This document shows, piece after piece, positions 52,430 to 56,962 of a stretch of 64,000 bases of DNA. This DNA comes from Flavobacteriales bacterium (lineage in GTDB: Bacteria > Bacteroidota > Bacteroidia > Flavobacteriales_D > Crocinitomicaceae), in contig CANGJM010000014.1 of NCBI GenBank assembly GCA_947454525.1, forward strand, positions 1 to 64,000, written 5' to 3'. Below the pieces are notes generated by a model, which was not told the origin of the DNA, did not search any database, and saw nothing but the letters and a program-made list of their open reading frames with translations. The position numbers were made by a program, and so were the translations under genes. Positions within the stretch are counted from its first letter, which is position 1. The number at the start of each line of letters is the position of its first letter.

Positions 52430-52459
52430 TCAATAGTTGTTTAAAAAGCTGTTATTAGT

Positions 52460-53500
52460 TTAATTCAAATAGTATCCTGTAGCTTTACCCTGTCCTTCTT
52501 TTGTGATGATTCCTTTTTCAACTAATTCACCTAGGTTCTTTTTCACAGTAGGCAATGCGAGTCCAAGTTTCTTTGCGATTTCACCAGATCCGCATCCTGA
52601 ATGGTTTTGAATGTAAAACAATATGCTCTTTTCGCGAATGGACACAGGCACATCTATTTTACTTTCTTCTAATTTGTATAATAGTTGATCTTGAATATGA
52701 ATCAAACAGCTGATAAAAAAAGTAATCCATTCTGTTATGTTTTCTCCGGGTCTTTCGCGTTGTGTTTGCATGAGTATTCTGTAATACTCAGATTTTCGAT
52801 TTTCAATTTCATGCTCAAAACTAACGTATTGAATCCATGAATACCCATTTTTCAGGAGCAACAAACTACCTAGCAACCGACTTAAACGACCATTCCCATC
52901 TTGAAACGGATGGATACTTAAAAATTCATACACAAAAACAGCTGCTTTGAGCAATGGAATTGTTTCTTTATCGGTTTTATACCAATCGAACAACTGCCTC
53001 ATAGCGTCTTCCGTCGCTATTCCTGGATCTGCTGTTTTAAAGACAATTTGTTTTGTGCCATCAACGAAGTTCGCCTCAACAGCATTGCTGACTTGCTTAT
53101 ATTTTCCTTTATGCCACGTATCCTTTTCGCCATGCTGCATTAAAATTTTATGCAAGTTTTTAATTTGACCCTCCGTAATTTGAATGGCATCAAAGTTCTC
53201 TGCGATGGTGTCTAACGCTTCAAAATACCCAATTACCTCCTGTTCGTCTCTTTCCTCTAGTTTAGAAATAGACAATTTCCCGATCAATACAGCTACTTCA
53301 TCATCGGTCATTTTAGAGCCTTCAATTCTGGTTGATGCGCCGACACTTCGAACTGTTGCGATCGATTTTAGTTGTTTCAGTGATGTACCCTCTCGTTTCT
53401 CTATGGAAGTCCACGAAGCATCAAACCGATCTATTTTGTTCAGGTCAGTAAGGATTTTCATGCCAAGATCCAAGTGCAAATTGTGTATTTTCAGGCTCAT
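52460..53500 (-). CDS. Fic-family protein with C-terminal winged helix
   Basis: The protein has 346 residues. The Fic active site is HPFQDGNGRLSRLLG (about 199-213). N-terminal to it, STRIEG (about 55) matches the inhibitory motif (S/T)-x-x-x-E-(G/N) of class II Fic proteins, so it is probably self-inhibited. A winged helix at about 290-345 (GCGSGEIAKKLGLALPTVKKNLGELVEKGIITKEG) suggests DNA binding. Most Fic enzymes attach AMP to proteins. The start codon abuts a 12-box TATACG array, a likely binding region for its own winged helix. Confidence 0.92.
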   Translation of the reverse strand: MSLKIHNLHLDLGMKILTDLNKIDRFDASWTSIEKREGTSLKQLKSIATVRSVGASTRIEGSKMTDDEVAVLIGKLSISKLEERDEQEVIGYFEALDTIAENFDAIQITEGQIKNLHKILMQHGEKDTWHKGKYKQVSNAVEANFVDGTKQIVFKTADPGIATEDAMRQLFDWYKTDKETIPLLKAAVFVYEFLSIHPFQDGNGRLSRLLGSLLLLKNGYSWIQYVSFEHEIENRKSEYYRILMQTQRERPGENITEWITFFISCLIHIQDQLLYKLEESKIDVPVSIREKSILFYIQNHSGCGSGEIAKKLGLALPTVKKNLGELVEKGIITKEGQGKATGYYLN

Positions 53501-53504
53501 AAAA

Positions 53505-53651
53505 TATACGTATTTATACGCAAATATACGAATAATATACGCATTTACAACTTAAAAATATACGTATTTATACGTATATATACGATTGGATATACGAAAT
53601 GATTGATGAAAAATATACGTATATATACGTAAATATACGAATCAATATACG
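53505..53651. repeat. 12 TATACG boxes in three ~55-bp tandem units
   Basis: TATACG begins at 53505, 53515, 53525, 53536 / 53559, 53569, 53579, 53591 / 53614, 53624, 53634, 53646. Each of three units of 54-55 bp holds four boxes at 10, 10 and 11-12 bp spacing, which puts them on one face of the helix. Units are separated by 23 bp start to start between last and first boxes. The array begins 4 bp upstream of the fic start codon. Confidence 0.9.
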
Positions 53652-53701
53652 AAATAAAATGGATCGATTCCTTTACCAATAAAGGATTCAACCCAAATTC
53701 G

Positions 53702-54952
53702 TCACTTCAACTCCTCTTCTGCAACTTCATCCGTTTTCGTGTATCCTTTCAGCGTCCATGAAATTAATAGGAAAGCTAACAGCGCGATAAATGCGGCAAC
53801 TAGGAATGGTGTCCCGAGTCCAAGGTTGGAGTTGGGTACACTTGATTTGAAATTGTAGTAAAACCACATGAACAATGGTGGACCAATAATCTCGGCCAAA
53901 CTCATCAAGCTAGTGAAGATTCCTTGGAGTTCTCCTTGCTCGTTGCTTTGCACTTGTCCGGAAATTATAGAACGAATCGCTGGATCCACAATTCCAGTGA
54001 ATGCATATGGTAGAATGATGGCGTACATCATCCATCCTTCGTAGATGAGTCCCATTCCCATTAAAACGAAAATCGAAAGAAATAAGCCAAGTTTAGCTGC
54101 ATTTCTCTGCCCTACTTTCGCAACAATTTTTCCAGTTAAGGCTCCTTGAACGACTCCAAAACAAACACCGACAACGGCTAATGAAATCCCCACTTCTTTG
54201 GTGGTCCAGCCGAATTTTTCCATCGAATAGAAATTCCATGTGGAATGGACACACATCGTTGTAAGAATCGTCAAGAAAGAAACGAGGAATAAATACTTTA
54301 ACTTCTTGAAGCGTTTCATTTGTTGAAGTGCACCAAAAGGATTGGATCGTTTCCACTCGAAGGCGCGGCGGTTTTCTACGGGTAAAGATTCTTTCAAAAC
54401 GATAAATCCATAGATGAAATTCGCCATGGAAAAGAAAGCTGCTACTAAGAATGGCGTACGCGCACCAAAGTCCGATAGGAGTCCACCAATCGCTGGTCCG
54501 ATAACAAATCCAATACCAAAGGCAGCACCAATCATCCCGAAATTCTGTGCACGTTTATCCGGAGTGGAAATATCTGCAATGTATGCGGAAGCGGAAGTGA
54601 AACTCGCACCAAAGATACCAGAGACTGCTCGTCCGATCACCAACCACCATAAATCCGGTGCGAAATACATCACCATATAATCCAAGCTCATTCCGAGTAC
54701 GGAAATCAACAAAATGGGACGACGACCAAAGCGATCGCTCAAGTTTCCGATGAGCGGAGAAAAGATGAATTGCATGAACGCGTAAGCACCCATCACCCAT
54801 CCAAAATACTGAGATGCTTGTCCTAATGGCACATGCGCCGTTTCTGAAATTAAGGTTGGAAAAGACGGAATGATGATTCCAAGACCAATGGAGTCAAGGC
54901 AGATGGTTACTAATATAAAAAGTAAAGCCGATTTCGGATTGATGACATTCAT
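53702..54952 (-). CDS. MFS efflux transporter (TetA-like)
   Basis: The protein has 416 residues from ATG 54952, with 12 membrane helices. The loop 2-3 motif GNLSDRFGRRPILLISVLG and the TetA-type motif C region GFVIGPAIGGLLSDFG are clear, and the first helix TICLDSIGLGIIIPSFPTL is typical of the TCR/Tet family. It probably exports a drug or metabolite by proton exchange. Substrate cannot be read from sequence. Confidence 0.92.
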   Translation of the reverse strand: MNVINPKSALLFILVTICLDSIGLGIIIPSFPTLISETAHVPLGQASQYFGWVMGAYAFMQFIFSPLIGNLSDRFGRRPILLISVLGMSLDYMVMYFAPDLWWLVIGRAVSGIFGASFTSASAYIADISTPDKRAQNFGMIGAAFGIGFVIGPAIGGLLSDFGARTPFLVAAFFSMANFIYGFIVLKESLPVENRRAFEWKRSNPFGALQQMKRFKKLKYLFLVSFLTILTTMCVHSTWNFYSMEKFGWTTKEVGISLAVVGVCFGVVQGALTGKIVAKVGQRNAAKLGLFLSIFVLMGMGLIYEGWMMYAIILPYAFTGIVDPAIRSIISGQVQSNEQGELQGIFTSLMSLAEIIGPPLFMWFYYNFKSSVPNSNLGLGTPFLVAAFIALLAFLLISWTLKGYTKTDEVAEEELK

Positions 54953-56930: not shown

Positions 56931-56962
56931 ACATTAACACATTGGCACATTAGCACATTAAA
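56931..56962. repeat. four tandem octamers (ACATTrrC-type)
   Basis: ACATTAAC, ACATTGGC, ACATTAGC and ACATTAAA run in tandem with an 8-bp period. The last unit covers the stop codon of the barrel gene at 56958. It lies between the two paralogous barrel genes. Confidence 0.7.

Follow-up and report, generated by a model that had tools for sequence, protein, structure and literature searches.

CccR of Yersinia pseudotuberculosis is a class II Fic protein with a C-terminal helix-turn-helix (HTH) that binds and represses its own promoter (PMC9755527, PDB 7XUX). Among the papers searched it is the nearest characterised case to the fic gene described here, which lies in a 64,000-nucleotide stretch of a Flavobacteriales genome (hereafter the window). 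CccR and the window Fic share an inhibitory S-xxx-E-G motif and the CccR-type feature of a C-terminal HTH on a class II Fic, and 7XUX is a detectable relative in both sequence and fold. They differ in the DNA ahead of the gene. The CccR operator consists of two inverted 10-bp repeats 26 bp apart, whereas 4-12 direct repeats 10-12 bp apart are found here; the array, being made of direct repeats, does not contain the two widely spaced inverted repeats of the CccR type. CccR is also a secreted type VI secretion system (T6SS) effector, whereas the window Fic has no sign of secretion.

The available part of the SoFic paper presents SoFic as a single-gene anti-phage Fic family, with a small antitoxin (AS1) and no operator described in that part (PMC12249575). 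Like the window Fic, SoFic is a class II Fic with a C-terminal domain. In the window Fic, residues 45-343 align to the PADLOC SoFic profile at 4.2e-48, but the NCBIfam SoFic equivalog model gives 58 bits against a cut-off of 550. SoFic is the nearest defence family by profile, but by the NCBIfam score the window Fic is not a SoFic equivalog.

Two regulators outside the Fic family have a related operator geometry. BldC of Streptomyces is a winged helix-turn-helix (wHTH) protein that binds head-to-tail on direct repeats of varying number (PMC5859096), the same geometry that is proposed below for the Fic winged helix. However, BldC is a MerR-like protein of 68 residues with 9-bp repeats and no enzyme domain, and belongs to another wHTH family by Pfam; the Fic protein is not a MerR-like wHTH of about 68 residues. 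The defence-island repressor RptR autorepresses a defence promoter via short direct repeats overlapping the -10 box (PMC12255303), which resembles the proposed fic operator in its autorepression through direct repeats over a promoter. In contrast to the boxes at fic, each RptR repeat is palindromic and is occupied by a homodimer; the fold is unrelated and the regulator gene is separate. Literature searches of open-licence papers returned no description of the direct-repeat operator proposed here for fic.

Results

The fic gene (52460-53500, minus strand) encodes 346 amino acids and, from its open reading frame, Pfam matches, motifs and AlphaFold model, is predicted to be a class II Fic enzyme whose C-terminal part is a winged helix. 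Pfam matches are Fic (1.6e-18) and HTH_24 (1.2e-9, residues 290-333). The catalytic sequence HPFQDGNGRLSR at residues 197-208 agrees with HPFx(D/E)GNGRxxR, and the inhibitory motif STRIEG (residues 56-61) has the class II form (S/T)xxxE(G/N) and precedes the Fic motif on the N-terminal side of one and the same chain. The catalytic core and the inhibitory motif are nearly invariant among homologues. By its motifs the product is a class II Fic AMP-transferase with predicted activity. The winged helix, a HTH_24/MarR-type wHTH fused to Fic, spans approximately residues 287-345. The AlphaFold model has a recognition helix at 316-328 and a wing at 332-345, with a mean pLDDT of 78.7 and low confidence at 43-84, around the inhibitory motif. 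The recognition-helix codons, including those of P317 and K321, are at 52517-52555 (minus strand) and were delimited from this model and from the co-variation described below. Solved relatives of the protein include SoFic (3ZCN, 3EQX) and CccR (7XUX).

Ahead of fic are 12 TATACG boxes on the plus strand (53505-53651), which read CGTATA in the direction of the gene and form three near-identical units of four. The proximal unit (53505-53541) has TATACG starts, listed from the fic side outwards, at 53505, 53515, 53525 and 53536; read on the minus strand it is four CGTATA boxes with a spacing of 11-10-10 that end 4 bp before the start codon (53500-53498, minus strand). The middle unit (53559-53596; starts at 53559, 53569, 53579 and 53591), also recognised by comparison with the homologues L004 and L005, and the distal unit (53614-53651; starts at 53614, 53624, 53634 and 53646) have a spacing of 12-10-10 on the minus strand. 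On the plus strand the box intervals are 10,10,11, then 10,10,12 and 10,10,12, with gaps of 23 between units, which recur at periods of 54 and 55 bp. The sequence-only reading of this DNA had described such an array and was right in every coordinate. It had also considered the order to be far beyond chance, and in 200 dinucleotide-shuffled versions of the window the densest 147 bp contained 2 boxes, compared with the 12 observed. The 55-bp period scores 201 in Tandem Repeats Finder. A triple-box pattern has a single site in the 2.83-Mb genome, which is the window array, and the reversed-pattern control has 0.

The same reading placed all boxes on one side of the helix. This holds within each unit, where the resultant is 0.94-0.98 at 10.5 bp per turn, but not across all three units, where phase drift lowers it to 0.50; strict one-face phasing of the 12 boxes was therefore rejected. 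The term iteron-like, also used there, fits the appearance only. The neighbouring genes encode a TonB receptor and an MFS transporter, with no rep gene or origin next to the array, and no link between the array and replication was found. Replication iterons were rejected, as there is no rep gene and the array is linked only to fic. Elsewhere in the window, a short tandem repeat of ACATTAGC (56931-56960, 3.8 copies) lies between two genes for related proteins.

The array is conserved in a sample of 80 fic homologues from public genomes (57-100% identical). All 80 have at least one four-box unit with a spacing of 11/12-10-10 within about 250 bp of the start, and each scores at least 13.2, against 12.6 for the best shuffled upstream region. 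By a stricter count, 62 homologues have two units, 15 have one and 3 have three, so that a third unit like the distal unit of the window is found in only 3 of the 80. The base autocorrelation of the upstream regions peaks at 10, 20, 31, 45, 55 and 65 bp. Unit-to-unit distances are concentrated near 45 and 55 bp, which fits a helical-phase constraint between units as well. The box differs by clade (CGTATA, CGGATA, CGAATA, CGTATC, CGAATC, CGAACC or CGTCTC), and the letters are largely uniform within one locus. In one locus (L149) the boxes ahead of fic (CGTATT/CGTATC) form an enlarged run, which suggests that unit number can grow through local duplication. Another fic copy (L104) has an internal TAA stop, and its proximal boxes are altered relative to the close relative L103. 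Eleven homologues carry about 140 extra residues C-terminal to the winged helix (L033, L034, L035, L041, L042, L044, L050, L056, L069, L125 and L126).

A blind search of 295 Bacteroidia genomes with a degenerate four-box pattern gave 21 places in 18 genomes, and the reversed pattern gave 1. Of the 17 distinct loci, 12 immediately precede a member of this fic subfamily; the array thus occurs mainly at the promoters of that subfamily. This outcome and the presence of the array in all 80 homologues both favour the sequence-only reading, which had itself proposed the two checks. The other five loci (L112, L113, L117, L118 and L121) have an array and no adjacent fic gene, and at least two of them look like remnants. 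The array of L112 appears truncated, L118 has a lone distal unit whose flank matches that of the fic locus L116, and L117 has a similar single unit; these three are probably remnants of lost fic cassettes.

Comparison by blastn with near relatives without this fic outlines a cassette of fic and array of about 1.28 kb (52430-53709). In L212, and similarly in L213, about 24 bp replace this segment, and the locus is otherwise intact, with the convergent TonB receptor and MFS transporter genes retained. Since both lack the whole block between the same neighbours, the array and the gene move as one cassette that is gained or lost as a single block. Matches to fic were found in 20 of the 200 genomes of the family sample, and in only a few of the same genus. 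A search for relatives in viral contigs found none.

The inspected upstream regions of further Fic genes, from this genome and from related ones, have no such array, and some of these genes have inverted repeats upstream instead. A second Fic subfamily of about 295 amino acids, with the start MINQTTKDKI, has an inverted repeat like TTACCGTGAA...TTCACGGTAA around a TATATTT promoter element (L182, L183, L185, L203, L204, L205 and L206, the last in the window's own genome). This is apparently another Fic operator with the opposite symmetry. A distant Fic (L109, 33% identical) has an inverted repeat TACTGCATA...TATGCAGTA upstream and no direct repeats.

The Bacteroidetes promoter consensus has TTTG at -33 and TANNTTTG at -7 (PMC6847099). 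The window has the pattern TTG-N19-TATATTTG. The predicted -7 element TATATTTG (53521-53528, minus strand) matches TANNTTTG and overlaps boxes 2-3 of the proximal unit, and the predicted -33 TTG (53548-53550, minus strand) is 19 bp upstream of it in the gap between units. The predicted transcription start is near 53516, some 16 bp ahead of the ATG. The -7 element is in the same register in most homologues. It overlaps the proximal unit, in strict or relaxed form, in 53 of the 80 homologues, including the window. In 20 of the 80 it is downstream, mostly 21-26 bp from box 4, and the unit covers the -33 region; no -7 element was detected in the remaining 7. Both arrangements would suit a repressor that blocks RNA polymerase. 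Because the boxes overlap the -33/-7 promoter, autorepression of fic seems most likely. An RNA-level element was rejected, as most of the array would stay untranscribed in the window and in many relatives because their -7 element is inside the proximal unit.

Co-variation was scored in 104 non-identical homologues by comparing boxes 3 and 4 of every unit with each protein column. Residue 321 ranks first of 346 columns for box position 6 (adjusted mutual information 0.729; next 0.489). R321 occurs with C at this position in 59 of 59 loci and K321 with A in 39 of 45. The exceptions L049 and L080 pair K321 with C boxes, and four S317 loci likewise combine K321 with C at position 6. Residue 317 ranks first for box position 5 (adjusted mutual information 0.855; next 0.293). 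S317 goes with a majority of C at position 5 in 4 of 4 loci, compared to 0 of the 100 other loci, and the one locus with CGTCTC boxes (L058) has G317. A search around G229 for additional S317 relatives returned just the one known before. Within the recognition helix, residues 317 and 321 are separated by a single turn. On a tree of the Fic domain alone, L033 (P317, CGxATA) and L034 (S317, CGAACC) are sisters, a pair in which the box switch can be seen between close relatives.

Independent switches are few. Position 6 has six parsimony changes, four of which are on the same branches as K/R changes at residue 321, and position 5 has two. The per-column simulation p of 0.0025 is the floor of 400 simulations and fails correction over 346 columns; the strength of the co-variation is in the rank of the two residues and in their position within the recognition helix. 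For the spacing between boxes 1 and 2 (11 or 12), no protein column was above the simulated maximum.

A distant set of 19 homologues (37-46% identity), some on proteobacterial and cyanobacterial plasmids, was also compared. In 10 of the 19, the 100 bp immediately ahead of the gene contain an exact 6-mer that recurs at a 10-bp distance, compared to 0.28 expected. The repeat letters differ, for example TGGATA, TGGATG and CGGGT. The strict four-box statistic, which is too rigid, was below p = 0.05 in only 4 of 21 distant homologues in this identity range, and the 10-bp lag test was picked after this weak result and after the sequences had been viewed. It is therefore suggestive, not firm, that 10-bp-phased direct repeats with other letters are often kept in homologues from other phyla, since the stricter test was mostly negative and the lag test was chosen post hoc.

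Discussion

Sequence comparison establishes the conservation of the array, its spacing, its overlap with the promoter, its linkage to fic and its co-variation with the protein. From this evidence, the array is probably the operator of an autoregulated fic gene, read by Fic's own winged helix and repressing. Each CGTATA box would be the site for one C-terminal winged helix, and residues 317 and 321 of its recognition helix (316-328) would read box positions 5 and 6. The winged helices would align head-to-tail in sets of four, at intervals of 10-12 bp along a single face of the DNA, and two or three units would cover the promoter. As Fic protein rises, RNA polymerase would be shut off and the potentially toxic AMP-transferase kept low. 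We infer that Fic physically binds the boxes, that it does so cooperatively and with a head-to-tail stoichiometry, and that the outcome is repression; the choice of repression over activation is drawn solely from position. Earlier suggestions of a cooperative operator and of autoregulation fit the promoter overlap, and the winged helix as reader of the array is backed by the co-variation of the boxes with residues 317 and 321, so that binding of Fic to its own array is strongly, if indirectly, supported. A counterpoint to the direct-repeat model is the two-fold symmetry of known Fic dimers, from which inverted repeats would be expected.

A regulator encoded elsewhere might bind the boxes and control fic in trans, and a host factor could favour AT-rich direct repeats. 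However, the array accompanies fic both within the cassette and across lineages, the genome has no second array, and no column of Fic follows the box letters as closely as those of its recognition helix; control in trans is therefore quite unlikely. Alternatively, the winged helix might bind the array and activate fic, or serve as a concentration-dependent switch rather than a simple repressor. The unit upstream of the -7 element in 20 of the 80 homologues is in a possible activator position, and the number of units ranges from 1 to 3, but in 53 of the 80, the window among them, the -7 element is overlapped by boxes that continue towards the start codon, an occluding position, and CccR is a repressor. 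Activation or a switch is thus unlikely.

A neutral tandem duplication, or a side effect of AT-rich promoter sequence, is an extremely improbable explanation of the array. The units of the window are near-identical and the expanded run at L149 indicates that local duplication occurs; however, the spacing is kept in all 80 homologues, the letters diverge in step with the protein, and the distances between units are mainly about 45 and 55 bp. Beyond simple autorepression, it is conceivable, though doubtful, that the array couples DNA occupancy of 4-12 aligned Fic proteins to their inhibited state. A signal-triggered release, for example by phage infection, would then derepress the gene and activate AMP transfer at once, and the DNA would act as a built-in antitoxin.

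Conclusions

Many class II Fic enzymes have a winged helix at the end of the chain. The fic locus yields a base-by-base prediction of which DNA is read, by which residues and at what spacing, and two residue-to-base rules (321 to position 6 and 317 to position 5) make the idea testable. The comparison suggests that self-repression via phased direct repeats is the usual state of one widespread Fic subfamily. The locus also shows how the expression control of a mobile toxin-like gene can be packed with it into one compact cassette.
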